Shown: positions 8,922 through 51,705 of the stretch, in pieces
How the letters are laid out: every line of letters begins with the position of its first letter
Numbering within the stretch: position 1 is the first letter of the stretch
DNA from: Candidatus Saganbacteria bacterium
GTDB lineage: Bacteria > Margulisbacteria > WOR-1 > XYC2-FULL-46-14 > XYC2-FULL-37-10
Assembly (NCBI GenBank): GCA_016223245.1
Contig: JACRPL010000008.1
Coordinates: 1-64,000 of the forward strand
Length of the DNA stretch: 64,000 nucleotides
Direction of reading: 5' to 3'
The notes under the pieces: model-generated
Databases searched by the model: none
The model's input: the letters and a program-made list of their open reading frames with translations, nothing else
Told to the model about the DNA's origin: nothing
Made by a program: the position numbers and the translations under genes

Positions 8922-8952
8922 AGTAATTTTTCATATGAAAGGGTGTAAATAA

Positions 8953-9024
8953 ATGGCAAAAATAAAAGCGATAATCGGACGAGAAGGATTGGACTCGAGA
9001 GGAAACTCTCAGGAAAGAGAATAA
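8953..9024 (+). pseudogene. Duplicated 5' end of enolase, now a 23-codon mini-ORF
   Basis: The first ~52 bases repeat the start of eno at 9910 with three mismatches up to that point, two of them at third codon positions. The frame reads [18 protein letters not shown] then SQERE and a TAA, against [18 protein letters not shown] in the intact gene. It keeps its own ribosome-binding site (GAAAGGG at 8938-8944). The stop lies 2 nt before the ATG of the inserted gene, so the truncated enolase start now works as a translated leader for it. This is best read as the left boundary of an insertion at the 5' end of eno. Confidence 0.85.
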
Positions 9025-9026
9025 GC

Positions 9027-11184
<2,158 letters not shown>

Positions 11185-20949: not shown

Positions 20950-22323
20950 ATGCCCAAATATTTCATTAAGACGTACGGATGCCAAATGAACAAGAACGAT
21001 AGTGAACGGCTGGCGGGCGTTTTCGAGTTTGCGGGCTACGCGCCAACCGATGCCATAAAGACGGCTGACCTTGTTCTGGTCAACACTTGTGCCGTTCGCG
21101 AAAATGCAGAAAATGTCGCAATGTCTTATCTGATGTCTCTTAAAGGCGACAAGAAGAAAAATCCAAATTTGAAAGTTGTCGCTTCTGGATGTGTGGTAGC
21201 AATTCCCGAAGGAAATCTGAAAAAACAATTATCCCATGTCGATCTTTTCATAACACCCTCCGAGTATCAAAAACTTGCCGATTTCTTGGGAGTATCGCCA
21301 TGTACATTTTCTCCCAAAAGAAGCGGCTCGATAACCGCATGGATCACGATCATGAATGGCTGTGATAACTTTTGCTCATATTGTATCGTTCCATATGTCC
21401 GCGGGCGCGAAAGAAGCATTCCTGCAGAGGATATCCTATCGGAAATCAAACAGCTGGGCCCACAATATAGAGAAATTTTCTTGCTTGGGCAGAATGTGAA
21501 TTCATATAAGTATGGATTCGCTGATCTGATGAAAAGGATAGAGGCAATTATTGAACCTGCGGCTGAACGCCGCGGTTATGTTGGTGAGGAACCGCGAGCC
21601 GTGCCTGCCGGCAGGCAGGGTTTACTCGCAGGTTCCGTCAAAATTGATAGAATCCGCTTCATGACATCGCATCCAAAAGATATGTCTGATGAAATTATAG
21701 ACGCGGTGCACGATCTGCCCCATGTTTGCGAATATTTCCATTTGCCCATCCAGCACGGCGATGATGAAATATTAAAAAGCATGAATAGGGGATACACAGT
21801 TTCTGATTATAAAAAAATAGTTGATAAGATCAGGAATAAGATACCTAATGCTGCGATCACTTCAGATATAATAGTCGGGTATCCCGATGAAAATGATAGC
21901 CAATTTCAGAATTCCCTAAATATAATAAAAGATATCGGTTTCGACGCTGTAAATACTGCGGTTTATTCTCCACGAGCAGGTGCTAAGTCCTCAAAACTAA
22001 CAGATAATGTTCCCGCCGATATAAAAGTCCAAAGGCTAGGCGAAATAATGGAAGTTGTCGATGCAGTAGCGCTTGAAAGGAACAGTAAATTAATTGGCTC
22101 TGTTCAGGAAATTCTCGTTGAGCCCCCCTCTCTTTCTCCCCCTTATCAAGGGGGAGATGTCCCGAGCTCTGTCGAGGGGCAGAGGGGGTATAAAGGCCGC
22201 ACCAGGACAAATAAGATAGTAAAACTATTTTCGGATCATTCGGACTTGATAGGCAACCTAGTCAATGTTAAAATAAAATCAGCAAAGAGCTGGATATTAC
22301 AAGGAGAATTGACAAATGGCTAA
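20950..22323 (+). CDS. miaB: tRNA-2-methylthio-N6-dimethylallyladenosine synthase
   Basis: 457 residues. It methylthiolates i6A37 of tRNAs using two Fe-S clusters. The N-terminal MTTase domain has its three Cys (TYGCQMNKND, LVNTCAVREN, ASGCV), and the radical SAM CxxxCxxC is Cys138/142/145 (GCDNFCSYC). A C-terminal TRAM domain follows. Two repeat insertions are in frame: family A at ~212-229 (RAVPAGRQGLLAG) and family B at ~391-415 (SLSPPYQGGDVPSSVEGQRG). The second sits in the TRAM domain. It starts directly at the cbiM stop and overlaps prs by 8 bp. Confidence 0.95.
   Translation: MPKYFIKTYGCQMNKNDSERLAGVFEFAGYAPTDAIKTADLVLVNTCAVRENAENVAMSYLMSLKGDKKKNPNLKVVASGCVVAIPEGNLKKQLSHVDLFITPSEYQKLADFLGVSPCTFSPKRSGSITAWITIMNGCDNFCSYCIVPYVRGRERSIPAEDILSEIKQLGPQYREIFLLGQNVNSYKYGFADLMKRIEAIIEPAAERRGYVGEEPRAVPAGRQGLLAGSVKIDRIRFMTSHPKDMSDEIIDAVHDLPHVCEYFHLPIQHGDDEILKSMNRGYTVSDYKKIVDKIRNKIPNAAITSDIIVGYPDENDSQFQNSLNIIKDIGFDAVNTAVYSPRAGAKSSKLTDNVPADIKVQRLGEIMEVVDAVALERNSKLIGSVQEILVEPPSLSPPYQGGDVPSSVEGQRGYKGRTRTNKIVKLFSDHSDLIGNLVNVKIKSAKSWILQGELTNG
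21585..21635. repeat. Family A palindrome within miaB
   Basis: GCCTGCCGGCAGGC (21603-21616) with outer arms GAGGAACCGCGAG and CTCGCAGGTTCC, themselves inverted. The same outer arms occur around the degenerate copy at ~3019-3078, so the two share a larger unit. It keeps the frame and adds a PAGRQ-type loop. Confidence 0.85.
22122..22188. repeat. Family B palindromic repeat within miaB
   Basis: CTCCCCCTTATCAAGGGGGAG core followed by ATGTCCCGAGCTCTGTCGAGG and a G-rich end. The reverse complement of the same ~66-bp unit, inner sequence included, lies in leuS at 29403-29469. Confidence 0.85.
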
Positions 22324-23260
22324 TTCTGAATTAAACGTTTTCTACGGAACGTCCCATCCCGAGCTTGGCGAGAAAATAACAAAGTATTTGGGTATAAACG
22401 CGGGGAAGATCAAGCTTTCGAGGTTTTCCGGCGGAGAAAATTATGTCCGGTTGCTCGACAATGTCCGGGGCCAATCAGCCGTAATAATCCAAACCTGCAC
22501 CCAAAATGTGAACGACGATCTTATAGAGCTTTTCATTATAATCGACGCGATGAAGAGAGCTTCCGCGAAATCAATTACTGTTGTGATGCCGCAATTTGGA
22601 TACGCAAGGCAAGACCGGAAAGCGGCTTCCCGCGAACCGGTCTCCGCAAGGCTTGTCGCCAATCTTTTGGAAACCGCGGGCGCCGATAGAATTATCGCAA
22701 TGGATCTCCATTCGGACCAAATTCAGGGATTTTTTAATATCCCGGTGGATACATTGACCGCAATGCCGCTTTTTACAACATATCTTAAAGAAAAAAATCT
22801 TAAAGATATGGTGGTTGTAGCACCCGATACCGGCCGCGCAAAAGTAGCCAAAAAACTTGCCGACCGAATAGGCGCAAATCTCGCTATCCTCCATAAAGTC
22901 AGGGCCGAACACCATCAATCCGCCGTAACCCATGTTGTCGGTGAAGTTAAAGGAAAAACAGTGATCATTACGGACGATATGATAGATACAGCCGGAACGA
23001 TTACAAACGGAGTTGCGGCGCTCAAAGCGGAAGGGTGCAACAAAGATATTTATGTCGTAGCGACACACGGGATATTTTCGGGGCCTGCGGTCGAGAGAAT
23101 GGAAAAAGCAGGCTTTGCGGAAGTTGTCGTTACCGATTCGGTCCCAATATCCAAAGAAAAGCAATTCAAAGGTTTAAAAATACTGTCTTCTGCAGAGATA
23201 TTAGGAGAGGCCATCAGGCGCAATTACGAACACAAGTCCATCAGCAGCCTTTTTGATTAA
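22316..23260 (+). CDS. prs: Ribose-phosphate pyrophosphokinase
   Basis: 314 residues, usual length. It makes PRPP from ribose 5-phosphate and ATP for nucleotide, His and Trp synthesis. Visible family segments: FSGGENYVRL, FGYARQDRKAASREPVSARL, DLHSDQIQGFF, VVAPDTGRAKVAKKLADRI and the PRPP loop ITDDMIDTAGTI. AGGAG at 22302-22306 precedes the ATG, which overlaps the miaB end by 8 bp. hom follows after 1 nt. Confidence 0.97.
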   Translation: MANSELNVFYGTSHPELGEKITKYLGINAGKIKLSRFSGGENYVRLLDNVRGQSAVIIQTCTQNVNDDLIELFIIIDAMKRASAKSITVVMPQFGYARQDRKAASREPVSARLVANLLETAGADRIIAMDLHSDQIQGFFNIPVDTLTAMPLFTTYLKEKNLKDMVVVAPDTGRAKVAKKLADRIGANLAILHKVRAEHHQSAVTHVVGEVKGKTVIITDDMIDTAGTITNGVAALKAEGCNKDIYVVATHGIFSGPAVERMEKAGFAEVVVTDSVPISKEKQFKGLKILSSAEILGEAIRRNYEHKSISSLFD

Positions 23261-23261
23261 T

Positions 23262-24533
23262 ATGAAAAAAGTAAATATCGGAATATTAGGATACGGCACA
23301 ATCGGTTCGTCCGTTGATAAGTTGGTAAAAGATAACCACGATCTTATCGCTCAAAGGACCGGTCTTGATCTGGAAGTCCTAAATATCTGTGATGTATCGC
23401 CAAAACTAAAACACCCCAAACTTGTCCGCGATGCCGGAAAGATCACAAGAAATCCTGAAATTTCCGTCGTGGTCGAATCGATCGGCGGGACAAAACCGGC
23501 CTTGGATTTCATATTAACCGCAATTGAAAATGGAAAACACGTTGTAACATCAAACAAAGAAGTTATGGCTCTTTTTGGCGATAAGATAATGGCAGCTGCG
23601 GCAAAACATGGAGTAGCGGTCCTCTTTGAAGCGTCCGTTGGTGGTGGTATTCCAATAATTGGTTCGCTTTCTTCGGATCTTGTCGCTAACGATGTGACCG
23701 AAGTTTACGGCATTGTAAATGGGACCACAAATTATATTCTCTCCAAAATGGAAAAAGAGGGCAGTGAATTTAGCGATGCCCTTAAAGAAGCCCAAAGCTT
23801 GGGGTTTGCCGAAGCTAATCCTAAAAAAGATATTGAAGGGTATGACGCGTCATATAAAGCAGCGATATTAGCTAGCGTAGCATTCCGAAAGATCATTAAT
23901 TGGAAAGATGTTTATTTTGAGGGTATTACAAAAATAACCAAAGAAGATATAAGCTATGCCAAAGATATCGGATATGTAATCAAGCTTTTGGCAATAGCAA
24001 AAAAGACCGGCAATGAGCTTGAGGTCCGCGTCCATCCGACGCTTATACCAATTGATCATGCTCTTGCTTCCGTAAATGGCCCTATGAACGCTATTTATGT
24101 TAAAGGAAGTGCGGTCGGGGAGCTTATGTTCTATGGGCAAGGAGCTGGTGGCTTGCCAACTGCCTCTGCGGTGGTTTCAGATATTATAGCGGCCGTCGCA
24201 AATGACAAATGTCAAATGGCAAATGTCAAATTATTGAAAGCTAGAATTAAAAATATTGAAGAGATAAGCAGCAGGTATTATATCCGCATGATAACGCCTG
24301 ACCACCCGGGTGTTCTTGCCCAAATATCAAAGGCATTCGCCGACAATAATGTTTCGATAGCCGCTGTTGTCCAGAAAGAGAATGCCGTGCCTGCCGGCAG
24401 GCAGGTTGGATATCTCGCAACTATTGTTATTACGACGCATGAGTCAAAAGATAAAGACCTGAATAACGCACTCGATAAGATCAAAAGATCAAAAATAGTA
24501 AAAACTGTATGCAATGTGTTAAGGATAATCTAG
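23262..24533 (+). CDS. hom: Homoserine dehydrogenase with C-terminal ACT domain
   Basis: 423 residues. It reduces aspartate semialdehyde to homoserine for Thr and Met synthesis; the C-terminal ACT domain usually gives threonine feedback. Seen: Rossmann GILGYGTIGSSV, TSNKEVMALFGD, FEASVGGGIPIIG, GIVNGTTNYILSKME and KAAILASVAFR. The ATG at 23262 follows the prs stop by 1 nt; an upstream TTG is ignored. A family C repeat encodes the linker between catalytic and ACT domains (~314-324), and a family A palindrome adds AVPAGRQ to an ACT loop (~374-383). thrC lies elsewhere at 42502. Confidence 0.95.
   Translation: MKKVNIGILGYGTIGSSVDKLVKDNHDLIAQRTGLDLEVLNICDVSPKLKHPKLVRDAGKITRNPEISVVVESIGGTKPALDFILTAIENGKHVVTSNKEVMALFGDKIMAAAAKHGVAVLFEASVGGGIPIIGSLSSDLVANDVTEVYGIVNGTTNYILSKMEKEGSEFSDALKEAQSLGFAEANPKKDIEGYDASYKAAILASVAFRKIINWKDVYFEGITKITKEDISYAKDIGYVIKLLAIAKKTGNELEVRVHPTLIPIDHALASVNGPMNAIYVKGSAVGELMFYGQGAGGLPTASAVVSDIIAAVANDKCQMANVKLLKARIKNIEEISSRYYIRMITPDHPGVLAQISKAFADNNVSIAAVVQKENAVPAGRQVGYLATIVITTHESKDKDLNNALDKIKRSKIVKTVCNVLRII
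24201..24232. repeat. Family C repeat (CAAATGT units) in the hom linker
   Basis: AATGACAAATGTCAAATGGC continuing to 24232, a simple tandem of CAAATGT-type heptamers, in frame between the catalytic and ACT domains. The same motif occurs at 2974-3005, 34527-34540 and 50423-50456. Confidence 0.8.
24383..24408. repeat. Family A palindrome in the hom ACT domain
   Basis: GCCTGCCGGCAGGC at 24389-24402 encodes PAGRQ within the loop before an ACT-domain beta strand (GYLATIVITTH), in frame. Confidence 0.85.
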
Positions 24534-24549
24534 AAGGGAGAAATAATAA

Positions 24550-27417
24550 ATGGCTATGATCTGCGACGAATGTCATATAAATCCGGCGACGGTGCATGTT
24601 ACAAGGATTGTTAACGGAAAAAAAATAGTTAGGCACTTGTGCGCATCATGCGCCGAAAAGCTTGGCTTTATGCCGACAGAGTTCGGATTCCCGGGATTTT
24701 TCGAAATACCGGATATTTTTGCATCTCTTTTTAAACGCAGGCCGTCCGAGAGAATTTACGATTATTTCTCCGAATCCGCCCAAAAAGTCGTCCATTTGGC
24801 ATCGGAGGAAGCTGGCAGGTTAAAACATGACCACCTTACTCCCGAACATTTGCTTTTAGGAATCATAAAAGAAGAGGGATTTGCTTCAAAGATATTGGCT
24901 GATCTCGGAATCAATAGTGTTAATCTTTTTTCCGACATTGAATCGCTTATCGGCCATGGCGAGGGCGGTAAAAAAGAAATAAGCTTGTCTCCTCGTTCAA
25001 AAAAAGTATTGGAGCTTGCTTATAACGCGGCTCGCGAATTGGGATTTAGCTTTGTAGGTTCGGAACATATACTTTTGGGGATAATCCGTGAAGGCGAATC
25101 AATTGCGGCGCAAGCATTGCACAAGAGGAAGATCAATTTTGATAAAGTTGTTACAAAGATAATCGAGAATATCGAAAAAGAACAAAAAGAAGAACCGCCG
25201 CAAAGAGAGATAGAGCCATTTGCCCAAGAGTTTGAAAGTCCTGAAGAGCCGGAAGAAGGGGAAGGCGGTCCCGGAATGTTCGGATTCCCCGGATTTGGCG
25301 GCGGAATGCCGGGCACTATGATGCAGCCTCCACCGCGAAAAGCTGCTCTTGCATCATTTGGGCGCGACCTGACAGAGGACGCAAAAAATGGAAAACTCGA
25401 TCCGGTTATAGGCCGTGAAAAAGAGATAGAGCGCATTATCAGGATATTATCCCGAAGGACAAAAAATAATCCCGCACTCCTGGGCGATCCGGGCGTAGGT
25501 AAGACCGCGATCGTTGAAGGCCTTGCCGAGCGGATCATAAAAGGCGATGTACCTGATGTCCTAAAAGACAAAAAAGTATTTTCCTTGGACCTTGGCGGTA
25601 TGGTCGCGGGGACCAAGTATAGAGGCGAATTTGAATCAAGGGTTAAAAAAGTCCTTGATGAAATATTGGCAAAAAAGAGGCAGATAATACTTTTCATAGA
25701 TGAGCTTCATACTTTAGTCGGCGCCGGCGCCGCAGAGGGTGCGATAGATGCCGCCAATATGTTAAAGCCGGCCCTTGCCAGAGGAGAGCTTCAGGTAATT
25801 GGGGCAACAACAGTTGACGAATACCGTAAAAATATCGAAAAAGATGCCGCACTTGAGCGGCGCTTTCAGCCTGTAATGATAACCGAGCCTTCACAAGAAT
25901 TAACGATCGAAATATTAAAAGGCATCAGGTCTAAATATGAAGAGCATCATGGAGTTAGGATCCCTGATCAAGCAATAATTTCTGCGGTTTCTTTATCCGA
26001 TCGCTATATTTCCGATAGGTTCCTTCCCGATAAGGCGATCGATGTCATGGATGAGGCGGCAGCAAAAGTTAGGTTGCGATTAATTGCGAAATCTCCAGAA
26101 TTAAAAGAGATCCAGAAAAAACTCTATGCGCTAAAAAATAAACAGCATGACAGCGTCGGCAAACAAAAATTTGAAGAAGCGGCAACCGACCGAGATGAAA
26201 TAAAAAATCTGGAGAAGAAACAAAAAGAGCTCGAAGTTGATTGGAATGCGGAGAGAGTAAAACTTCCCGCGATAGTTACAGATGATGATATCGCAGAAGT
26301 CGTATCCGATTGGACAGGGATCCCTGTCGTTAAATTAACTCAAGCCGAAACGGAAAAGCTTATTCACATGGAAGAAACTCTCCATAAGAGAATTATCGGC
26401 CAAGAGGATGCTGTTGTATCGATCGCTCAAGCGATCAGGCGTGGAAGAGCGGGGCTCAAGCAGCCGGAGCGGCCCGTCGGATCGTTTATTTTTGCCGGAC
26501 CAACGGGGGTAGGAAAAACAGAGGTCGCAAGGCGTCTTGCAGAATTTATGTTCGGCACAATGGACGCGATGATCCGCATCGATATGTCGGAATACATGGA
26601 AAAACATACGGTCTCCAGATTGATCGGAGCGCCTCCCGGATATGTCGGATACGAAGAGGGTGGGACATTGACCGAAGCTGTTAGGCGCAAACCGTACTCT
26701 GTTGTTCTTTTTGACGAGATCGAAAAAGCCCATCCGGATGTTTTCAATGTCCTATTGCAAGTACTCGATGACGGCAGATTGACCGATTCAAAAGGCAAAA
26801 CTATCGATTTTAAAAATACCGTTATCATTATGACAACAAATATCGGGCAGAGAATGATAATTGAACGCGGTGCGATCGGCTTCCTGCCTCAAGAAGACCG
26901 CGAGCAGGATTACGAAAAGATGAGGGATATGGTGCTCGATGAGATGAAGAAAGAATTCCGTCCGGAGTTCTTGAACCGTGTCGATGAAACTATAGTTTTC
27001 CATCCGTTGTCGGACGAGGAATTAAAGAAGATCGCTTCGTTAATTATTGCCGATGTCGAAAAGCAGATGGAAGGACAGGGCATGCAGCTTGAAATAAATG
27101 ACGAGGTAAAAGCGCAGATCGTGAAAGAAGGGTACGAACCGAAATTCGGAGCTAGGCCGCTGCGGCGTGCGGTCCAAAAGCTTATTGAGAATCCTTTGAG
27201 CAATCAAATTATCGAAGGTAAATTCAAGATCGGAGATAAGATAGGCGCAAAAGTATCCGACGGCAAGATCGTATTCGAAAGAATAGGAACTGCCGACATC
27301 AAGCCTAAGGCGAAGAAATCTGAAACGAAAGGCGATTTTCCCGAACCAAAAGTTGAAGAAACCAAAGAAGTTTCCGGCGAAGAGCGCGCAAAAAAGGGCC
27401 GAAAAAAGAGCAAATGA
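24550..27417 (+). CDS. clpC: ClpC AAA+ unfoldase with an N-terminal McsA-like zinc finger
   Basis: 955 residues. The first ~40 residues form a CxxC...CxxC finger (Cys5, Cys8, Cys31, Cys34; PATVHVTRIVNGKK) that matches the start of McsA, normally a separate protein of the ctsR-mcsA-mcsB-clpC operon. Then come two Clp-N repeats (~71-215), AAA1 with Walker A at 312-319, an M-domain with a UvrB/UvrC-type motif (~539-560) and AAA2 with Walker A at 650-657 (GPTGVGKT). It unfolds substrates for ClpP. The tail is Lys/Glu-rich. GAAGGGAG precedes the ATG. It overlaps leuS by 4 bp. Confidence 0.95.
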   Translation: MAMICDECHINPATVHVTRIVNGKKIVRHLCASCAEKLGFMPTEFGFPGFFEIPDIFASLFKRRPSERIYDYFSESAQKVVHLASEEAGRLKHDHLTPEHLLLGIIKEEGFASKILADLGINSVNLFSDIESLIGHGEGGKKEISLSPRSKKVLELAYNAARELGFSFVGSEHILLGIIREGESIAAQALHKRKINFDKVVTKIIENIEKEQKEEPPQREIEPFAQEFESPEEPEEGEGGPGMFGFPGFGGGMPGTMMQPPPRKAALASFGRDLTEDAKNGKLDPVIGREKEIERIIRILSRRTKNNPALLGDPGVGKTAIVEGLAERIIKGDVPDVLKDKKVFSLDLGGMVAGTKYRGEFESRVKKVLDEILAKKRQIILFIDELHTLVGAGAAEGAIDAANMLKPALARGELQVIGATTVDEYRKNIEKDAALERRFQPVMITEPSQELTIEILKGIRSKYEEHHGVRIPDQAIISAVSLSDRYISDRFLPDKAIDVMDEAAAKVRLRLIAKSPELKEIQKKLYALKNKQHDSVGKQKFEEAATDRDEIKNLEKKQKELEVDWNAERVKLPAIVTDDDIAEVVSDWTGIPVVKLTQAETEKLIHMEETLHKRIIGQEDAVVSIAQAIRRGRAGLKQPERPVGSFIFAGPTGVGKTEVARRLAEFMFGTMDAMIRIDMSEYMEKHTVSRLIGAPPGYVGYEEGGTLTEAVRRKPYSVVLFDEIEKAHPDVFNVLLQVLDDGRLTDSKGKTIDFKNTVIIMTTNIGQRMIIERGAIGFLPQEDREQDYEKMRDMVLDEMKKEFRPEFLNRVDETIVFHPLSDEELKKIASLIIADVEKQMEGQGMQLEINDEVKAQIVKEGYEPKFGARPLRRAVQKLIENPLSNQIIEGKFKIGDKIGAKVSDGKIVFERIGTADIKPKAKKSETKGDFPEPKVEETKEVSGEERAKKGRKKSK

Positions 27418-29927
27418 GCTCATATAACCCGTTAGATATCGAACCACGTATCCAGGAATTGTGGGAGAAAAATCAATCATACACAGTTTTGGACTCTTCC
27501 GATAAGCCAAAGTACTACGATCTAGTCATGTTCCCTTACCCGTCCGGCAATCTCCATATGGGCCATGTCAGGAATTATGCGATAGGCGATGTGATCGCGC
27601 GCTATAAAACAATGAAAGGCTTTAATGTCCTTCATCCGATCGGATGGGACGCGTTTGGAATGCCCGCCGAAAATGCCGCCATCAAAAATAATACTCATCC
27701 CGAACCATGGACCGACCAGTGTATCGCGCGCATGAAAAAGCAATTGAAACGACTGGGCCTATCATATGATTGGAGCCGCGAAGTCAACACAAGCAAACCG
27801 GAATATTATAAATGGACTCAATGGATGTTCCTTTTGATGTATGAGAGGGGCTTGGCGTACAGGAAAGAGGCCGTGGTCAACTGGTGCCCAAAATGTGAAA
27901 CTGTTTTGGCCAATGAACAAGTAAAAGAAGGAGCTTGCTGGAGATGCGATTCTATAGTTGAAGAAAAACAGCTAAAGCAATGGTTCTTTAAAATTACCGA
28001 ATATGCAGACAAACTTTTAACCGATATCGATAAATTAAAGGGGTGGCCCGAGCCTGTTAAGATCATGCAAACTAATTGGATCGGGAAATCGGAAGGCTTA
28101 GAGATATCTTTTGCCATCACCCCCAGCCCCTCTCCCAATGGGAGAGGGGGGGCCGCGAGCGGAAGCGAGCGGTGGGTGAGGGTTTATACAACAAGACCAG
28201 ATACGATATTTGGCGTTACTTATATGGTTCTAGCGCCGGAACACCCTATGGTTTCGGACTTATCCAATGGAACCCCATTTGAAAAAGCTGTAAAAGAATA
28301 TCAAGAAAAAGTTAAACATGAATCTGTCCATGATAGGACCATAAAAGCTGAAAAAGACGGGGTCTTCACTGGAGCTTACGCTATTAATCCCGCGAATAAC
28401 GAACAGATCCCGATCTGGATATCAGATTATGTTTTGATGGGGTATGGAACCGGAGCCGTTATGGCTGTCCCAGCTCATGACCAAAGGGATTTCGATTTTG
28501 CGAAAAAGAATAAACTGCCAATGAAAATCGTGATTTGCCCAAATTATCCCAACCCTATCTGCCCCGTTCTAACCGAAGCTTTTGAAGGGGAAGGGCACAT
28601 GGTTGACTCAAAACAATTTGATGGGCAGAAAAGCTCGGAAACTCTTGATAAAATTGGGGACTGGTTGGTTGAGAAATGGATCGCTTCTTGGAAAACAAAT
28701 TATAAGCTTCGTGATTGGCTTATTTCCCGCCAGAGATATTGGGGCGCCCCAATTCCTGTAGTTTACTGCGATAAATGTGCTTCGACAGGCTCAGCACAAG
28801 CTGGGATAGTTCCTGTTCCTATTAAAGATCTGCCGGTCAAGCTTCCAATAGACGTAAAGTTTACAGGAGAGGGCGGGTCGCCTTTAAAGAATTCGAAATC
28901 GTTCATTGAGACTACGTGTCCGAGATGCGGGACGCGGGATGCGAGACGCGAGACTGATACATTGGATACCTTCAATTGTTCATCCTGGTATTATTTCAGA
29001 TATTGCGATCCCAAAAATAGCAGTGAGCCATTTAGCCGCGAGCTGTCAGCTAAATGGATGCCGGTTGACCAGTATATTGGCGGTATTGAACATGCCATAC
29101 TCCATCTCTTATATTCGAGATTTTTTACAAAAGTCCTTTATGACGCGGGCTATTCGAGTACAAATGAGCCATTTACAAATCTTTTGACCCAAGGAATGGT
29201 CGTAAAAGACGGCGCCAAGATGAGCAAATCAAAGGGCAATGTTGTAGATCCGGATTATATTATAGAAAAATATGGTGCGGATACCGCGCGTTTATTTATT
29301 TTATTCGCATCACCGGCTGAACGCGAGCTGGAGTGGTCTGACGCCGGGGTAGAGGGGAGCTTTAGATTTCTGTCGAGAGTTTGGAGGCTCATAACTGAAT
29401 TGACCCCATCTGTCCCTCGACAGAACTCGGGACATCTCCCCCTTGGTAAGGGGGAGAATGAGAGGGGGGCAAAAAAGACCCATCAAACGATCAAAGCTAT
29501 CACTGAAGATATCGAGCGATTTTCTTTCAATACTGCAATTGCAAAACTTATGGAGCTCACGAATTCTTTTTACGAAAACTCTGCAACAGTTACAAAATGG
29601 GAACTGGAACAACTTATTTTGATGTTGTTCCCTTTTGCGCCGCATATTTCAGAAGAGTTGTGGAAGATAATGGGACATAGCGACATAGCAACAAAGCAAC
29701 AGTGGCCTAAATATGACCCAGAGTTAATTATAGATTCGGAGATCACGATCCCAGTCCAAGTTAACGGTAAACTACGAGATACAATTACTTTGACAATTGA
29801 AGCATCCGAATCAGATGTTAAAGCGTTGGCCCAAAAGAGCGAAAAAGCGCAGATATTCCTTAAAGATAAGACTATTATAAAAGTGATCTATGTGCAAAAA
29901 AAATTAATTAATTTTGTTGTCAAGTAA
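27414..29927 (+). CDS. leuS: Leucyl-tRNA synthetase
   Basis: 837 residues, class I synthetase charging tRNA-Leu. HIGH motif in PYPSGNLHMGHVRNY (~41-55), the editing-domain TTRPDT near 260 and KMSKS in GAKMSKSKGN (~600-606). At least five repeat-derived stretches are in frame: ~235-257 (family B-like), ~456-465 (TGSAQAG), ~501-514 in the zinc-ribbon-like segment (RCGTRDARRETD), ~663-686 (family B, SGHLPLGKGENERG) and ~753-763 (SDIATKQQ). All catalytic motifs are intact, so the enzyme should be active. It overlaps clpC (ATGA) and converges directly, with no gap, on the next gene. Confidence 0.97.
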   Translation: MSSYNPLDIEPRIQELWEKNQSYTVLDSSDKPKYYDLVMFPYPSGNLHMGHVRNYAIGDVIARYKTMKGFNVLHPIGWDAFGMPAENAAIKNNTHPEPWTDQCIARMKKQLKRLGLSYDWSREVNTSKPEYYKWTQWMFLLMYERGLAYRKEAVVNWCPKCETVLANEQVKEGACWRCDSIVEEKQLKQWFFKITEYADKLLTDIDKLKGWPEPVKIMQTNWIGKSEGLEISFAITPSPSPNGRGGAASGSERWVRVYTTRPDTIFGVTYMVLAPEHPMVSDLSNGTPFEKAVKEYQEKVKHESVHDRTIKAEKDGVFTGAYAINPANNEQIPIWISDYVLMGYGTGAVMAVPAHDQRDFDFAKKNKLPMKIVICPNYPNPICPVLTEAFEGEGHMVDSKQFDGQKSSETLDKIGDWLVEKWIASWKTNYKLRDWLISRQRYWGAPIPVVYCDKCASTGSAQAGIVPVPIKDLPVKLPIDVKFTGEGGSPLKNSKSFIETTCPRCGTRDARRETDTLDTFNCSSWYYFRYCDPKNSSEPFSRELSAKWMPVDQYIGGIEHAILHLLYSRFFTKVLYDAGYSSTNEPFTNLLTQGMVVKDGAKMSKSKGNVVDPDYIIEKYGADTARLFILFASPAERELEWSDAGVEGSFRFLSRVWRLITELTPSVPRQNSGHLPLGKGENERGAKKTHQTIKAITEDIERFSFNTAIAKLMELTNSFYENSATVTKWELEQLILMLFPFAPHISEELWKIMGHSDIATKQQWPKYDPELIIDSEITIPVQVNGKLRDTITLTIEASESDVKALAQKSEKAQIFLKDKTIIKVIYVQKKLINFVVK
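28118..28182. repeat. Family B-like palindromic repeat in leuS (first)
   Basis: CCCCTCTCCCAATGGGAGAGGGG core with a following GCGAGCGGAAGCGAGCG segment, in frame just before the editing-domain TTRPDT motif. Confidence 0.8.
28780..28806. repeat. CTTCGACAGGCTCAGCACAAG-type insertion in leuS
   Basis: Short imperfect inverted repeat encoding STGSAQAG between the CxxC of YCDKCA and the conserved VPVP segment. It is of the same kind as the CTCGACTTCGCTCGGGG element in pnp. Confidence 0.6.
28918..28955. repeat. GATGCGGGACGCGGGATGCG repeat in leuS (family D)
   Basis: Tandem GATGCGAGACGCG-type units replace the usual short loop after CPRCG, giving TRDARRETD. A second copy lies at 30976-31001 in a glycosyltransferase gene, in the coding sense VSHPAL. 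Confidence 0.75.
29403..29469. repeat. Family B palindromic repeat in leuS (second)
   Basis: Same ~66-bp unit as in miaB (22122-22188), opposite orientation: CCCTCGACAGAACTCGGGAC, then CTCCCCCTTGGTAAGGGGGAG. It encodes an insert in the anticodon-binding region. Confidence 0.85.
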
Positions 29928-30263
29928 TTAAGCGGGGACTTTTGTTTCCAGGGTTTTGATCCTAACCTCATGATTTTCTATCTTTTCATCATGCCTTTTA
30001 TATTGGGCATAAGCCATTTTTTGCTCAATAGACATATCTTCGAGCTTTTTAATGATTTTATCTTGGCCGGTAAGCATTTCATTTCTTAACTTTGAAAGGT
30101 CATCTTTGGTTGCAAAAGCCTTCAGATCCTCTTTAGTTGCGAAGACGTCCGAGAGTTTTTCAATATCTTTTTTTGTTGCGAAGACGTCCGAGAGTTTTTC
30201 AATATCTTTTTTTGTCGCGAAGACGTCCGAGAGTTTTTCAATATCTTTTTTTGTGATCGCCAT
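29928..30263 (-). CDS. Small coiled-coil protein with three 15-residue tandem repeats
   Basis: 111 residues, highly charged and helical: three copies of KKDIEKLSDVFAT, then KEDLKAFATKDDLSKL and a long helix (MSIEQKMAYAQYKRHDEKIENHEVRIKTLE in pieces) ending VPA. Such short coiled-coil proteins with ATKxDLxxL repeats are common and of unknown function. The stop directly abuts the leuS stop in a convergent arrangement with no spacer. The -10 box ends 10 nt before the ATG and an inverted repeat lies in the promoter spacer, hinting at regulation. Confidence 0.75.
   Translation of the reverse strand: MAITKKDIEKLSDVFATKKDIEKLSDVFATKKDIEKLSDVFATKEDLKAFATKDDLSKLRNEMLTGQDKIIKKLEDMSIEQKMAYAQYKRHDEKIENHEVRIKTLETKVPA
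30137..30254 (-). repeat. 45-bp in-frame tandem repeat
   Basis: About 2.6 near-identical 45-bp units (GAAGACGTCCGAGAGTTTTT start) encode the KKDIEKLSDVFAT heptad-like units of the coiled-coil protein. Identity between units implies recent expansion. Confidence 0.85.
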
Positions 30264-37435: not shown

Positions 37436-38513
37436 ATACCTTGTCTGCAACTATCTTCCAGTCAAAAATCTTGCCGCGAGATAGGCCGTTTGTTGTAAGA
37501 GAACGCGCTAGTCCCGGATCTTGCCTGATGCTTGTGATCTTTAATGCAAGATCGTTTGGATCTTTCTCTTTGAAGACAAGCCCTGCATTGCCTATTACTT
37601 TTGGGATCTCGCCTGACGATGAGCCGATCACGGGAACTCCGCAAAGCATGGCTTCAACCAATACTCTTCCAAATTGCTCTTTCCAATTTTTTGTAGTTCT
37701 TGATGGCAATACAAAAACATCCAATGCGGAATAGTATTCGTTGATCTCGTTTGGCGTTACGGCATCGATAAAAGTTGCGTTTTGAGCTATGCTCTTGAAA
37801 TATTCTCGGTCGGGGCCGTTGCCGATGAACATAAGTTTATAATGGAAAGCAAGTTTTTTGCATGCTGCGATAAGGTCTTCAATTCCTTTTTCTTTGATCA
37901 TTCTGCCAAAATATCCGATAGTGAATTCTTTTAGCCCAAGTTTATCCTTTATACGAGCAGGGTCTTGCGGTGAGAATAATTTTGTTTCTATCCCGGGATA
38001 TACCACATGGATAGGTTTTTTGTATCCCCAATGGAGAAGCACATCTTTCATTTCTTCCGCACATGCAATGGCTGCCGACGATCTTTTAAAAGTCCAATTT
38101 TGCGTCCGAATCCAGCTTTTTTGGTATTCTTCAACTTGGTTTTGGAATGTTTGGAAAATTAATTTTGCCTTGGGGCATATAATGCTTGACCATAAGTCCA
38201 TATAGGCCGCTATATTGTGCCATGGCTCTTCGAACATATGGATTATGTCGGGTTTGACCTTGAACAGATAGTAGGGCAGAAGGGGATAGAATCCGATCAA
38301 GATATCTTTGGGATAAAAAAGATATCCCACTATGATCTTGTATTTCGCATTTTTTGGGATGAAAGCCTCGACATATCGGCTGCCTTCGACATTTCCTTTC
38401 GGCATGAGGAGGGTTATTTCCAGGTCGTTATGCTCGGCAAGTTCCGCGATATATTTTTGATAAGTTTCAACGACCGCGGCATGCCAGATAAATAGTACTT
38501 TTGTTTCCCTCAC
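37410..38513 (-). CDS. GT4 glycosyltransferase
   Basis: 367 residues starting from a GTG at 38513 that overlaps the previous stop (GTGA). GT-B/GT4 hallmarks: FTIGYFGRMIKEKGIEDLIAACKKL, LMFIGNGPDREYF and the C-terminal E-x7-E region EQFGRVLVEAMLCGVPVIGSSSGEIPKVIGNAGLVF (in pieces). Retaining sugar transfer for surface-polysaccharide synthesis. Substrate unknown. Confidence 0.92.
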   Translation of the reverse strand: MRETKVLFIWHAAVVETYQKYIAELAEHNDLEITLLMPKGNVEGSRYVEAFIPKNAKYKIIVGYLFYPKDILIGFYPLLPYYLFKVKPDIIHMFEEPWHNIAAYMDLWSSIICPKAKLIFQTFQNQVEEYQKSWIRTQNWTFKRSSAAIACAEEMKDVLLHWGYKKPIHVVYPGIETKLFSPQDPARIKDKLGLKEFTIGYFGRMIKEKGIEDLIAACKKLAFHYKLMFIGNGPDREYFKSIAQNATFIDAVTPNEINEYYSALDVFVLPSRTTKNWKEQFGRVLVEAMLCGVPVIGSSSGEIPKVIGNAGLVFKEKDPNDLALKITSIRQDPGLARSLTTNGLSRGKIFDWKIVADKVYEAYKSLS

Positions 38514-39622
38514 TTTAACATATCCGATATGTCATGAGATATTTTTATAACCGATCCCACAACCCCCATGCGCTTTTGCCCCGTATTCGCCATATATTCC
38601 TGCCGCTGTTTGTCGTTTAGTATTTCCCAAACCTCTTCAGCGACTTTTACAGGCTCCCTTTTTGTTAAAGCTAGCGCCTCGCCTAGCAATTGTTTTTGTG
38701 CTCGGGCAAATTTCTTGTTGTATTGTGATCCACGACCGACAAATGCCACGACTGGTTTTCCGATCCCTGCCGCTTGTTCGTTCCCCGTCCCTGATAGCCC
38801 AATAACTACATCGGAGCTATAAATTACGTCTTCAAAAGGCTTTATGTCAAAACCTGCGACTAAATCCCGATGTGGGAATCGGGACAAGCGTCGCGGTTTC
38901 GAGCTTGTTAAAGCCAGCAGAAAGTTGAGCTTATTGTCGATTTTTTTTAATTCAATCAAGATTTTTTCAAAATCTTCAATATTCCTGTCAATATCGGCTT
39001 CCCTTGTACCTGGGAGGAATCCAATTACCCTCTCTCTTCTCTCCCCCTTAGCAAGGGGGAGATGTCCCGAAGGGGCAGTGGGGGTAAGCCCATCCATAAG
39101 AGGATTTCCCGCATAAATAGCGTTTATTCCATATTTCTTTAGGCTTTCGGCTGTTATTTCATCTCGAGCGTAAACTTTTTTCGCATATTTCTTCAAAATA
39201 TATTTTTCGAAAAAAGTGTAATTGAATCCCAGAGAGTGATAGTATTCGGATTTGTTGACGCCGACAAAGATAAATGGAGTTCTCGTAAGAAGCGCTCCGA
39301 CAATTGGGACAAAATCCCCGATCGACACAACAAGGTCGAATTCTCCTCTTAGAGAGATAAGTTTCTTTATTTGCGAATGGAATAAAGTGAAAAGCCCATT
39401 AATTAGATCTTTTGGCAGGGCGAAGAAATTCCTTAAAGAAAACCCTCCACCAGGAAGAGCTCGCCTTGGTTCGAGAATTTTCACATTTAGATCTTTGAAT
39501 TCTAACCCTTCACCTACAAGAGGGTAAACTGAAATATCAAATCCCTGGGGCAGGTTTTTTATTATCCTTGCCGCAGTTTGGTCTTCACCGTGTCCGTTAG
39601 TGAGAAATAGAATTTTTTTCAT
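38510..39622 (-). CDS. LpxB-related glycosyltransferase (TIGR03492-like)
   Basis: 370 residues from the ATG at 39622 (MKKILFLTNGHGEDQTAARI); a longer frame to 39664 runs deeper into the ABC transporter gene. GHGEDQTA, IGDFVPIVGALL, GFLPGTREADI and GLSGTGNEQAAGIGKPVVAFVG fit the lipid-A-disaccharide-synthase-related family, known mainly from cyanobacteria and relatives. Exact acceptor unknown. Two palindromic insertions are in frame: family B at ~179-198 (SGHLPLAKGERRER) and a TCCCGATGTGGGAATCGGGA element at ~246-253. It overlaps the ABC gene by 26 bp. Confidence 0.85.
   Translation of the reverse strand: MKKILFLTNGHGEDQTAARIIKNLPQGFDISVYPLVGEGLEFKDLNVKILEPRRALPGGGFSLRNFFALPKDLINGLFTLFHSQIKKLISLRGEFDLVVSIGDFVPIVGALLTRTPFIFVGVNKSEYYHSLGFNYTFFEKYILKKYAKKVYARDEITAESLKKYGINAIYAGNPLMDGLTPTAPSGHLPLAKGERRERVIGFLPGTREADIDRNIEDFEKILIELKKIDNKLNFLLALTSSKPRRLSRFPHRDLVAGFDIKPFEDVIYSSDVVIGLSGTGNEQAAGIGKPVVAFVGRGSQYNKKFARAQKQLLGEALALTKREPVKVAEEVWEILNDKQRQEYMANTGQKRMGVVGSVIKISHDISDMLK
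38865..38884. repeat. TCCCGATGTGGGAATCGGGA palindrome
   Basis: A short inverted repeat (TCCCGAT...ATCGGGA) inside the LpxB-related gene, in frame, encoding SRFPHRD. It is another member of the small palindromic elements in this window. Confidence 0.6.
39028..39086. repeat. Family B palindromic repeat in the LpxB-related gene
   Basis: CTCCCCCTTAGCAAGGGGGAG core, then ATGTCCCGAAGGGGCAGTGG; same orientation as the miaB copy and slightly shorter. In frame. Confidence 0.85.
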
Positions 39623-41336
39623 CTTTAAATTGGAGGTCGTAGAGCTTTTTGTAAAGCCCGCCACCTGCTATCAATTCGGAGTGTGTCCCCGATTCAATTA
39701 TCCTTCCCGAATCCAGAACGATGATCTTGTCGGCATGCTGGACAGTGGACAGCCTATGGGCTATGACAAAAGTCGTGCGGTTTTTCATGAGCTTGTCTAT
39801 GGCGTCCTGGACAAGCTTTTCAGATTCCGTGTCAAGGGAGGAGGTTGCTTCGTCGAATATAAGTATCCTCGGATCCCTCAAAAGTGCTCGCGCTATTGCG
39901 ATCCTTTGCTTTTCTCCGCCGGATAGCCTAACTCCTCTTTCTCCGACCAATGTCTCATATTTTTCCTGAAGGGCGCTTATAAAGTCGTGTGCATTGGCCA
40001 TTTTAGCCGCTTGTTCTATTTCTCTGTCCGTCGCGTCGATCTTTGCATAGAGAATATTGTCCTTTATCGACCCAGAAAATAATATCGTTTCCTGCGGCAC
40101 AAGGCCCATAAACCTGCGTATATCGAAAATTTTCAGGTCTCGGACATCGTTGCCGTCGATCAATATTTGGCCGGAAATTACATCGTAAAATCTCGGGAGA
40201 AGGTTTACCATTGTCGATTTCCCGGATCCGGACCTTCCCACGAGGGCTATTATTTCTCCGGCGTTCATCTTGAAGCTGATATCTTTTAAAACGGGAACTT
40301 TGTCGTCATATGAAAAATAAACATTTTTAAATTCGACATTTCCGTCGATGTTTTCGAGATGTTTTGCGTCGGCTTTTTCCACTACTGTCGGCTTGATGTC
40401 GATAACCTCAAAAACCCTTTCGGCCGATGCCATTGCCGATTGAATGGATGTTGAAATAGACCCAAGGCGGGAAACTGGATCAGCTAGAAGTGCGATCCCC
40501 GTGAAAAAAGCTATTAAGTTCGCGCTTGAAAGTCGTCCTGCGACAACCTCAAGTCCCCCGTACCAGATCAATGTTAGTATCACGAACATTTGGATAAAGG
40601 ACAGGAGAGGCGTTTGGGTCGCGTATATTTGCGCCTGTTTCATCAGTATCCAGAAATTATTTTCGTTCTCGAGCCTGAATTTTTCGACCTCATGTTTTTC
40701 CATCGCGAAAGATTTTACAACTCTAATTCCTGAAACTTTTTCCTGAAGTATAGATGAGACATCGGCCACTTTGCTTTGCGCGCTATGGGAAACTTTGTGC
40801 ATTTGGTTGCCAAAATGGGTTATGAATAATCCCAAGATCGGGATCACGGTAATTGTAATAAGAGTTAAATGCCAATTTAGGTAGCACAAATATGCCAATA
40901 CGCCAAAAAGCGTCAAGATATTCGGGGTCATTTCGGTTATAGTGTTAACGATGACTGATTGTATGTTTTGGATGTCGGACAATAGCCTGGACAATAGATC
41001 TCCAGTCCGCCATTTAGCGAAAAAATCAAAGGACATATCCTGCATATGGCGATAAACCTGAAGCCTCAAGTCCGTTACGACCCTGTATCCCACAAAATTC
41101 ATAAGGTATCCTTGCCCGTATGCCGCAAGACCCCTAAAAAAATATACTACAAGGGCCGAAAGCGCTATGATATTTAAAAGGCCAAAATCCTTATTCCCGA
41201 TCGCTTCGGATATTTTGCCCACCAGGGGAATTATCGAAATGTTCGCCATCGCGAATATTGCCATGCATAGAATAGCCGTGGCTACTTCTTTGTTATAAGT
41301 TTTAATATATGAAAGCAGTCTTTTAAAGGTTTTCAT
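39597..41336 (-). CDS. MsbA-type ABC exporter
   Basis: 579 residues, one transmembrane domain (about six helices, ~1-310) fused to one ATPase. Walker A GRSGSGKST near 370, signature LSGGEKQRIAIARALL, Walker B ILIFDEATSSLD and the H-loop VIAHRLSTV. It works as a homodimer flipping lipid-linked saccharides or lipid A across the inner membrane. Lying between two LpxB-like genes with 14- and 26-bp overlaps supports a glycolipid substrate. A multidrug role cannot be excluded from sequence alone. Confidence 0.9.
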   Translation of the reverse strand: MKTFKRLLSYIKTYNKEVATAILCMAIFAMANISIIPLVGKISEAIGNKDFGLLNIIALSALVVYFFRGLAAYGQGYLMNFVGYRVVTDLRLQVYRHMQDMSFDFFAKWRTGDLLSRLLSDIQNIQSVIVNTITEMTPNILTLFGVLAYLCYLNWHLTLITITVIPILGLFITHFGNQMHKVSHSAQSKVADVSSILQEKVSGIRVVKSFAMEKHEVEKFRLENENNFWILMKQAQIYATQTPLLSFIQMFVILTLIWYGGLEVVAGRLSSANLIAFFTGIALLADPVSRLGSISTSIQSAMASAERVFEVIDIKPTVVEKADAKHLENIDGNVEFKNVYFSYDDKVPVLKDISFKMNAGEIIALVGRSGSGKSTMVNLLPRFYDVISGQILIDGNDVRDLKIFDIRRFMGLVPQETILFSGSIKDNILYAKIDATDREIEQAAKMANAHDFISALQEKYETLVGERGVRLSGGEKQRIAIARALLRDPRILIFDEATSSLDTESEKLVQDAIDKLMKNRTTFVIAHRLSTVQHADKIIVLDSGRIIESGTHSELIAGGGLYKKLYDLQFKDEKNSISH

Positions 41337-43930: not shown

Positions 43931-44133
43931 AAAAACCAAACGTTTATTTTGACAGCGATAGCGATGTCCTCTATATTGTCACCAAAAAAGGCGCAGAAGA
44001 AGAGTTTGTCGAAGTTGCCAAGGGTGTAAATGTCGAATTGGATAAAAATAAAAAAGTGATAGGGATCGAAATTCTTGATGCCTCAAGATCTTTAAGCCAA
44101 TTTATTAAAAAAGCCCATCTAAAAAGAGCATAA
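43927..44133 (+). CDS. DUF2283 protein (second pair)
   Basis: 68 residues with YFDSDSDVLYIVTKKGA and [21 protein letters not shown], clearly related to the 16918-17151 protein (shared [10 protein letters not shown]). Its stop shares a base with the hisS start (TAATG), so hisS translation is coupled to it. Confidence 0.85.
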   Translation: MKKPNVYFDSDSDVLYIVTKKGAEEEFVEVAKGVNVELDKNKKVIGIEILDASRSLSQFIKKAHLKRA

Positions 44134-45410
44134 TGAAATATTCATCACAGCGCGGCACTCGCGACATTTTGCCTGAAGATATGCCCGTTTGGCACGCAAT
44201 AGAAAATACATGCAAAACTCTCTTTGAATTATACAATTATCACGAGATAAGAACCCCAATTTTTGAAGCGACAGAGTTATTTACGCGCTCAATTGGACAG
44301 GAAACCGATATAGTTTCAAAAGAAATGTACACTTTTACCGATAAGGGGGAAAGAAGTTTAACATTAAGACCTGAAGCGACGGCTCCTGTTGTCCGAGCGG
44401 CGGTACAAAACAACCTAATTTCGGCAAATAGAATAACCAAACTCTATTATGTCGGCCCGATGTTTAGATACGAGAGGCCGCAAGCAGGGCGTTATCGCCA
44501 ATTTTACCAAGCTGGTGTTGAGGCATTTGGCCCCAAAGATCCCGCGTTAGATGCCGAAATTATCATCCTTGCGCATGAGATCCTTTCGCACCTTGGCATA
44601 CAAGACCTCGAAGTTGATCTTAATTCTGTCGGCTGTGAAAAATGCAGACCGGCATATCTTGAAAATGTTAAGAGCCATTTTTCAACCCATCTGGAAGAGA
44701 TGTGCGAAGATTGCAAGAACAGGGCGGAACATAATCCATTGAGGATTTTTGATTGCAAAAACCCGCAATGCAAAGAATATATAGAAAAAGCTCCGGCAGT
44801 ATTTGATAGCCTATGTTCCGAATGCAAAGACCATCTTGAAAAAGTTATTTCAAATTTGGACCTATCTAATATCAAGTATAAAATAAACAAAAGATTGGTC
44901 CGCGGGCTTGATTATTATACCGGAACTACATTTGAGATAATCTCAAAACAGCTTGGCGCCCAAAATGCCATCTGCGGCGGGGGACGATATGATGATCTAG
45001 TTTCAGAACTAGGCGGATCTTCGGTCCCGGCTGTTGGTTTTGCTTTTGGCATCGATAGGCTTGCAGAGATACTAAAAAACGCATCTCTCATCACGCATCA
45101 CCTGCCTGCCGGCAGGCACGGCGCATCTCGAAAACTAATTTATATTGCAGCGCTTGGAGATGATGCTCAAAAAGCCGCAATGGATCTGTTGCAGAAGATC
45201 CGTAAAATGGGAAGGATTGCCGAAATTGATTATTTTTCGCGCAATTTGAAGTCTCAATTGAAAGAAGCCGACAGGTTAAAGGCAAAATACGTGATAATAA
45301 TTGGGGATGACGAATTAAAATCTGGGAATTTGATCCTGCGAAACATGGAAAAGGCGACCCAGGAATCAATACCCATACCTAAAATGTTGGAAAGGATAAA
45401 TCTGCTATGA
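44133..45410 (+). CDS. hisS: Histidyl-tRNA synthetase
   Basis: 425 residues, class II synthetase. Motif 1 region with [17 protein letters not shown], motif 2 [22 protein letters not shown], the HisA signature [13 protein letters not shown] and motif 3 [13 protein letters not shown] family A palindrome adds ~LPAGRHGAS at 320-333, exactly in the linker between the catalytic core and anticodon-binding domain. It overlaps aspS by 4 bp (ATGA), the common hisS-aspS pairing. Confidence 0.97.
45092..45130. repeat. Family A palindrome within hisS
   Basis: CCTGCCTGCCGGCAGG-type palindrome (45101-45118) with GCATC-type arms, in frame, in the interdomain linker. Confidence 0.85.
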
Positions 45411-50267: not shown

Positions 50268-50906
50268 ATGAAAGTGATCATTTTACTCTCCGGCGGCCTT
50301 GATTCGACAACTACATTATATTATGCCATTCGCCACGGCTATGAATGCTTCGCGTTAATATTTGATTACGGCCAGCGGCACGCTCGAGAACTGCGAAGCG
50401 CGGTTGCGGTTGCCAAAAGAGCGAATGTCAAATGTCAAATGACAAATGTCAAATTACCCTGGAAGGGATCAGCACTTCTTGATAAAAACATTAAGATCCG
50501 AGAGACAAAGAACCATAGCGACATAGGGACAGATATTCCCTCGACTTACGTTCCCGCTCGAAACACAATATTTTTAAGTTTTGCCTTATCTTATGCTGAA
50601 GCGATAGGCGCGAAGAAAATATTTATCGGCGCAAATGCGGTTGATTATTCCGGTTATCCCGATTGCAGGCCTGAATTCATCGATGCGTTTAATGCTCTTA
50701 TCAAAAAAGGGGCTCGCGACAACAAGATCAAGATCGAAGCGCCGCTTATTAGATTAACTAAGCCACAAATAATAAAATTGGCATTAAAGCTTAAAGCGCC
50801 GATCGATCTTACATGGTCCTGCTATAAAGGCGGAAAGAAACCGTGCGGCGTTTGCGACAGCTGTGTTATCCGCCAAAAAGCTTTTGATGAGCCTAGATCG
50901 CGTTGA
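50268..50906 (+). CDS. queC: 7-cyano-7-deazaguanine synthase
   Basis: 212 residues. It makes preQ0, the precursor of queuosine. PP-loop LLSGGLDSTTTLYYA, FDYGQRHAREL, VPARNTIFLSFALS and the zinc site Cys185/193/196/199 in CYKGGKKPCGVCDSC. Two repeat-derived stretches are in frame: family C at ~51-64 (RANVKCQMTNVKL) and a CATAGCGACATAGGG element at ~79-88. The C-terminus KAFDEPRSR is abnormal: after DE the frame runs into foreign sequence, while the lost end (LGLAE or LGLKE) occurs in two downstream copies. It probably still works, since the zinc site is complete. Confidence 0.95.
   Translation: MKVIILLSGGLDSTTTLYYAIRHGYECFALIFDYGQRHARELRSAVAVAKRANVKCQMTNVKLPWKGSALLDKNIKIRETKNHSDIGTDIPSTYVPARNTIFLSFALSYAEAIGAKKIFIGANAVDYSGYPDCRPEFIDAFNALIKKGARDNKIKIEAPLIRLTKPQIIKLALKLKAPIDLTWSCYKGGKKPCGVCDSCVIRQKAFDEPRSR
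50423..50456. repeat. Family C repeat within queC
   Basis: CAAATGT-type heptamer tandem, in frame after the HAREL segment, encoding NVKCQMTNVK. Nearly the same sequence as in hom (24201-24232). Confidence 0.8.
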
Positions 50907-50968: not shown

Positions 50969-51211
50969 ATGTTGTCAAAACGGATACAGGTGCTTTTAGA
51001 CGAAAAAGAATACAAACGCCTGAAAAAAGCGGGAGACAAGTCTCATAAATCTGTAGGGGAAATATTTCGTGAGGCCGTAAAATTATACGGGGAAAGGTTA
51101 TTGAGCCAATCTGGCAGGGTGAAAATAGTTGAACAAATGGCGAAGCTTAAAGCTCCGGTGAAAGATTGGGCAAAGATGGAAAAGGAGATTTTTAAAGCGC
51201 GCGCCTCATGA
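50969..51211 (+). CDS. Ribbon-helix-helix-like antitoxin
   Basis: 80 residues: SKRIQVLLDEKEYKRLKKAGDKSHKSVGEIFREAVKLY is a ribbon-helix-helix pattern (beta strand, two helices), followed by a C-terminal region likely to bind the toxin. A run of eight G (50953-50960) serves as ribosome-binding sequence. It overlaps the PIN gene by 4 bp. It would repress its own promoter through the AACATGCACATA repeats. Confidence 0.85.
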   Translation: MLSKRIQVLLDEKEYKRLKKAGDKSHKSVGEIFREAVKLYGERLLSQSGRVKIVEQMAKLKAPVKDWAKMEKEIFKARAS

Positions 51212-51622: not shown

Positions 51623-51705
51623 AAAGGCGGAAAGAAACCGTGCGGCGTCTGCGACAGCCGTGTTATACGAAAGAAAGCTTTTGATGAATTGGGACTAGCC
51701 GAGTA
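51623..51705 (+). pseudogene. Second copy of the queC 3' end
   Basis: The first 66 bases (51623-51688) match 50826-50891 of queC with about seven differences, then continue to a natural end: KGGKKPCGVCDSRVIRKKAFDELGLAE and TAA. One zinc-site Cys has become Arg (DSC to DSR). It is detached from any start codon. It bounds the RHH/PIN insertion on the right. Confidence 0.9.

Follow-up and report, generated by a model that had tools for sequence, protein, structure and literature searches.

The leucyl-tRNA synthetase gene (leuS) of a Candidatus Saganbacteria bacterium carries DNA from several families of short repeats that are dispersed in its genome, and in the leuS genes of related species the same few loops of the enzyme are occupied by other repeats. 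This reuse of the same LeuRS loops by different repeats is a stronger finding than the inserts of the one leuS gene alone. We document the identity of the repeats, their reading frame, their sites, the intact motifs of the enzyme and the recurrence in relatives. The reading that we favour, and consider quite probable, is that dispersed short repeats enter genes and that selection keeps the in-frame copies in tolerant loops. The window is the whole 64,000-nt stretch of DNA that was analysed, in contig C8 of the genome, and all coordinates without a contig name refer to it.

Results

The leuS gene and its five repeat-like stretches

The leuS open reading frame is complete and of the bacterial type (1085.8 bits against TIGR00396, cut-off 548.4, in an NCBIfam profile search), and the solved structures closest to its product are LeuRS 1h3n, 3zgz and 5ah5. 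Close named relatives are the LeuRS of WOR-1 RIFOXYB2_FULL_48_7 and Candidatus Saganbacteria X2_MaxBin.013, with which the leuS genes of L032 and L030 (same class and order) are identical in the loops compared. In an alignment of 36 LeuRS, the HMGH and KMSKS motifs, the editing motifs TTRPDT and AHDQRD and the full set of eight zinc cysteines (C158, C161, C175, C178, C452, C455, C502 and C505) are kept and are mostly invariant or nearly so, in agreement with the preliminary description, in which every catalytic motif was intact. The gene and the five stretches are as follows, with the basis of each assignment in parentheses.

27414-29927, + strand: leuS, leucyl-tRNA synthetase (LeuRS), 837 aa (ORF; NCBIfam TIGR00396; Pfam; structure match)
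28117-28179, + strand: stretch 1, 63-bp composite palindrome in loop A (alignment, folding, pLDDT, dispersed matches)
28779-28802, + strand: stretch 2, 24-nt insertion GCTTCGACAGGCTCAGCACAAGCT (ASTGSAQA) (alignment, other copies)
about 28921-28954, + strand: stretch 3, repeat-like GACGCGGGATGCGAGACGCGAGAC after CPRC (alignment; matches elsewhere)
29402-29470, + strand: stretch 4, 69-bp composite palindrome in loop C (matches, folding, pLDDT)
29671-29699, + strand: stretch 5, 8-nt tandem repeat ACATAGCG/ACATAGCA in loop D (matches dispersed copies)

The preliminary description had counted at least five in-frame insertions in leuS, placed in the entrance of the editing domain, near CxxC segments and in the part that binds the anticodon. 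All five stretches are present at the positions given and match dispersed repeats; they lie at the editing-domain base, next to the CxxC pairs and ahead of the anticodon-binding bundle. Searched against 802 kb of the own genome, stretches 1 to 5 gave 10, 1, 7, 28 and 9 matches, respectively, self-matches included, and dinucleotide-shuffled queries gave none in five rounds over the same 802 kb. The five are, however, not all insertions: stretches 1, 2 and 4 gain length, stretch 3 adds 1 aa and stretch 5 adds none. These comparisons rest on alignment of the leuS stretches with about 30 relatives and with 35 mostly more distant LeuRS.

Stretch 1 consists of an outer stem holding two inner hairpins and is translated as TPSPSPNGRGGAASGSERW... 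It lies in loop A, at the editing-domain base, and in the structure model it extends the turn that joins strands 225-236 and 254-259. The loop thereby reaches 28 aa, where the median outside the group is 15, a gain of about 13 aa. Stretch 4 likewise has two inner hairpins within an outer stem. It belongs to a family of the form CCCCCTCT..CTCCCCCTTnnnAAGGGGGAG..AGAGGGGG, is translated in leuS as LTPSVPRQNSGHLPLGKGENERGA, and lengthens the turn in loop C between helices 643-666 and 681-701 of the model. Compared with the nearest relative it adds 11 aa, and the linker in which it sits is of variable length throughout. Both stretches are real insertions, with exact borders that are blurred because the loops evolve fast.

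Stretch 2 is a clean, precise 24-nt insertion. It sits between C455 and G464, past the first CxxC of the second zinc site, with its junction between TGT and GGG, and it was found in no Saganbacteria relative in the leuS alignment. One near-copy with a single mismatch lies between genes elsewhere in the own genome, at G000:C4:56744, in the 1.65 Mb searched, in which a backward-read control had no copy, and a 15-mer of the stretch (CTTCGACAGGCTCAG) is also intergenic in G001, a genome of the same family. The nearest relatives, L006 and L028, have none of stretches 1, 2 and 4.

One stretch had been described as replacing the loop after CPRCG. At stretch 3, repeat-like DNA does follow CPRC, but its net gain is only 1 aa and half of it encodes the conserved ARRETD, and it would not seem to be a clean insertion. 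Alignment with relatives, which had been proposed as a check, separates stretches 1, 2 and 4, which add real length, from stretch 3, which is in part conserved LeuRS. Stretch 5 leaves the length of loop D unchanged in the alignments (net 0 aa) and is not an insertion, though its sequence fits an 8-nt tandem family. Related peptides occur in BioF (DIATKLHSNIA), a FemX-like protein (DIETKRHSA) and RlmD (EDIVTKGHSNIE).

In folding calculations, stretch 1 reached a minimum free energy of -42.6 kcal/mol (z -4.05) and stretch 4 one of -35.3 kcal/mol (z -2.81), and in neither case did any of 200 shuffles fold as well. The z scores of stretches 2, 3 and 5 lay between -0.7 and -1.1. With just these two outdoing their shuffled versions, the term palindromic, which had been used for the whole set, is valid for two of the five. 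An AlphaFold2 model of LeuRS, built on 36 sequences, has a mean pLDDT of 88.8, and segments of at least three residues with pLDDT below 50 occur only at 245-251, 672-674 and 676-679, all of them within stretches 1 and 4. The placement at surface loops that had been proposed is supported by the model for these two stretches.

The same LeuRS loops hold different repeats in relatives

In other Saganbacteria the repeat families occur in different loops: the stretch-4 family sits in loop A of the L029 leuS, and the stretch-1 family in loop C of the L009 leuS. CGA-type REPs occupy loop B in L010, L013 and L014, and loop C in L013 and L029, whereas loop B of the own leuS (aa 376-386) holds nothing repeat-like. 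Tandem arrays with AATTCGAA-, AAATCCG-, ACTTCAA-, TGTACAG- and CGTCCAA-like units occupy leuS loops in L007, L011, L035, L028 and L025, and some relatives leave the loops short. The length of loops A and C varies outside Saganbacteria as well.

Matching leuS to the repeats of its own genome in 13 relatives (34-60 kb sampled from each) and the own genome (14 genomes) yielded 72 matches within the loops, which total 3.1 kb, and 50 in the remaining 30.8 kb, compared with 5 in reversed controls. The 50 matches outside the loops lie mostly at motifs shared with aminoacyl-tRNA synthetase paralogues, as read from their coordinates. G010, G014 and G025 showed no leuS loop match to their own repeats in the 38-60 kb sampled. 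When 24 Saganbacteria leuS were searched for strict palindromes and 6-9-nt tandem arrays, 16 fell in the six loops (5.4 kb) and 4 real ones in 47.9 kb outside them, three of these four in one further helix-helix loop. Four further tandem calls outside the loops proved to be a single row of N in L033 and were not counted.

In-frame repeats in other genes of the genome

For a census of repeats in coding sequence, 40 stretches and the window (802 kb, about half of the 1.65 Mb of this likely metagenome-assembled genome) were blasted against themselves, with ORFs called mechanically. Short repeats with at least three matches made up 197 intervals, from which KMSKS and ABC-signature motifs, poly-Thr tracts, protein-level tandem repeats and N-terminal segments were dropped. 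The census is conservative, as leuS stretches 1 and 2 themselves were missed. After this filtering, 55 repeat intervals lay within 40 ORFs of at least 150 aa in the 802-kb sample, which puts such repeats in at least 39 genes besides leuS. Their density was 0.074 per kb in ORFs compared with 2.1 per kb elsewhere, which is consistent with strong removal from coding sequence.

According to NCBIfam, the carriers are mostly housekeeping genes. They include, among others, IleRS, ValRS, CysRS, HisRS, MiaA, MiaB, RimO, TruB, QueC, RsmE, RlmD, MutS, RecG, RadA, a UvrD/PcrA helicase, DnaX, BioA, BioF, HemW, FolC, MurF, PurL, CoaBC, ThiL and LeuC. Many of the 40 carrier ORFs, which come from L115-L154 and the window, have tRNA or rRNA as their substrate (five tRNA synthetases, MiaA, MiaB, TruB, QueC, RsmE and RlmD). 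Within the window, in-frame inserts lie in MiaB (two; 20950-22320), homoserine dehydrogenase (two; 23253-24530), a lipid-A-disaccharide synthase-related protein (two; 38513-39664), HisRS (44133-45407), QueC (50268-50903) and PurL (59250-61433).

Twelve genes had at least two inserts, compared with 3.1 expected by length, and three genes (IleRS, ValRS and HemW) had three detected inserts each, compared with 0.24 expected; neither number was reached in 2000 simulations. This clustering in the same genes beyond chance could reflect more than passive tolerance. The idea that leuS is exceptional within its own genome was dropped because of the three inserts in each of those three genes.

Of the 18 copies of the stretch-4 palindrome family in the 802-kb sample, 14 sit inside ORFs, oriented either way, and the remaining four between ORFs. 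Each copy leaves just 1 to 5 of the six frames open, and still these 14 are in open frames. In the copies at L137:7450 and L144:16752, a second short, stretch-2-like palindrome is nested in the inner hairpin; the nested structures span L137:7400-7520 and L144:16730-16870, with a CTTCGACTTCGCTCAGG-like hairpin inside the stretch-4-family inner hairpin. Head-to-tail tandem arrays are also dispersed in the genome, with a period of 7 in most and of 8 in stretch 5, and are read in frame in LeuRS, ValRS, CysRS, QueC, MurF and others.

A RAYT-like transposase gene and its REPs

The own genome has one Y1_Tnp (RAYT-like) gene (E 1.9e-19), with REP palindromes that share the TGCGAATAAATTCGCGG core on both sides. 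A Y1_Tnp gene flanked on both sides by the same REP family was thus found for the CGA-type REP of the own genome only. The ends of this REP (AACCGCGA..TCGCAGGTT) are found in the leuS genes of L010, L013, L014 and L029. None of the five own leuS stretches contains the CCTGCGA..TCGCGG core, and a direct transposase link for them was dropped because none belongs to the RAYT-flanking family. Y1_Tnp genes were present in 24 of the 38 genomes searched and were not detected in some relatives with a repeat-filled leuS, such as G008.

Other repeats in the window

Position 8944 holds a 62-nt copy of the beginning of the enolase gene eno (9910-11184), and the two copies (8944-9962) enclose a 292-aa ORF (9027-9905); it looks as if a mobile element had entered at the eno start and restored the 5' end of the gene. 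Downstream of queC (50268-50906), the 3' end of the gene recurs twice, on the second occasion only partially (50826-50890, 51623-51687 and 53550-53581). A PIN-like ORF (51208-51621) separates the first two copies, an arrangement that suggests integration in tandem at this 3' end. Right after leuS, at 30126-30254, three 39-nt tandem copies (ATKKDIEKLSDVF) lie in a 111-aa minus-strand ORF. Two 274-nt direct repeats with 91% identity (5812-6397) lie inside a 962-aa ORF with C-terminal EPPKA repeats.

Discussion

We suggest that several short-repeat families, namely composite palindromes, REP-like hairpins and 7-8-nt tandem arrays, have multiplied in this genome and its relatives, and that their copies would land in coding sequence as well. 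Copies that break the frame or strike the protein core would be purged by selection, and in-frame copies in length-tolerant surface loops would persist and be translated as additional, mostly disordered residues. The tolerant loops of LeuRS would be those at the base of the editing domain, in the second zinc module, in the linker from the catalytic to the anticodon domain and between helices. As LeuRS has a few such loops, it would gather repeats repeatedly and independently in different species. We infer that the inserts are translated, that selection acts as the filter and that an adaptive role is absent.

Stretches 1, 2 and 4, like the pattern across the genome, are explained by insertion combined with selection on reading frame and on position within loops. 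Stretches 3 and 5 add no sequence, and simple insertion therefore does not account for them. They look overwritten, not inserted, possibly by gene conversion or microhomology template switching. RAYT-type single-strand transposition is a plausible spreader of the CGA-type REPs, as is template switching or slippage for the tandem arrays. The repeated capture of unrelated repeats by the same loops across the class might reflect self-propagating 7-8-nt arrays and nested hairpins that spread without a dedicated transposase, for example by replicative template switching at microhomology, and that overwrite as well as insert, as is suggested by stretches 3 and 5; we consider this unlikely.

A functional role would have the hairpins of the leuS mRNA slow the ribosome at domain boundaries and aid co-translational folding, or the loops bind a partner. 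The strong hairpins of stretches 1 and 4 at the editing-domain base and before the anticodon-binding bundle, and the reuse of loops A and C in many species, would fit such a role. We nevertheless consider it quite unlikely: the loops of relatives hold tandem arrays that need no hairpin, or stay short, neither sequence nor structure of the inserts is conserved, and the same repeats occur in many unrelated genes.

It is very improbable that the stretches are ordinary variable loops of LeuRS that resemble repeats by compositional chance. This holds in part for stretch 3, half of whose match is the conserved ARRETD codons, and loops A and C do vary in length outside the group. Yet no shuffled query matched, relatives too have leuS loops that match repeats from the respective genome, and stretch 2 is a clean insertion with an intergenic copy elsewhere, so that chance likeness is disfavoured for stretches 1, 2 and 4. 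Bypassed elements, such as the byps of yeast mitochondria, are GC-rich hairpins inside essential genes, which the present inserts may by analogy resemble; but decoding bypass or splicing from the RNA, by which they would never appear in the protein, is scarcely credible here, since it needs no preserved frame and yet the copies hold frame without stops (14 of the 18 in the stretch-4 family in open frames, the other four between ORFs), and hairpin-free tandem arrays occupy the same loops.

The present repeats have counterparts in other bacteria. The STRR of cyanobacteria are dispersed short tandem heptamer repeats, and dispersed head-to-tail units of about 7 nt were found here. TAACTGA repeats are known from Beggiatoaceae (PMC4679880). 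These two systems and the present one share dispersed arrays of 7-8-nt units; theirs are described mainly between genes, whereas the arrays here are also read through in frame.

The Rickettsia palindromic elements (RPEs; Ogata et al. 2000, 2002) lie in frame in many unrelated genes whose products are presumed functional, and are about 150 bp long and of ten families, as summarised in PMC10969869. Dispersed palindromic repeats in frame inside unrelated ORFs are likewise what we found. The elements here are 24-90 bp long, of several unrelated families that include tandem arrays as well as palindromes, and belong to an uncultured Margulisbacteriota lineage; given these differences in size and lineage, and with the RPE families compared by description only, we do not claim RPE membership.

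REPs tagged with GTAG or CGTC lie inside ORFs of several species, among them tRNA synthetase, TruB and DNA repair genes; some ORFs are hit twice, and two Xanthomonas recB genes are hit at about the same site (PMC3733652). The present repeats are similar in being intragenic, in tRNA synthetase and TruB genes and sometimes at the same site of orthologues. Here, however, the same sites are reused in many species of a class, by palindromes and tandem arrays alike, and stretches 1 and 4 have none of the GTAG or CGTC tetranucleotides, or their complements, that mark one end of the 20-40-nt palindromes of that class. With REPIN/RAYT systems (PMC3116915, PMC2817692) the genome shares a Y1_Tnp gene with flanking REPs, but the five own leuS stretches are outside that REP family.

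In the literature on repeats in Saganbacteria, we found no title or abstract opening that dealt with in-gene decoration. To our knowledge, descriptions of selfish repeats that decorate essential genes in frame come mainly from Rickettsia, Wolbachia and some REP-rich bacteria, and the phenomenon is now seen in a candidate class, uncultured and near the cyanobacteria. Alignment of LeuRS serves as a natural map of insertion tolerance, marking the loops that accept unrelated sequence repeatedly. The same loop with a different repeat in each of many species forms a comparative series, from which the mechanism of insertion and overwriting could be worked out.
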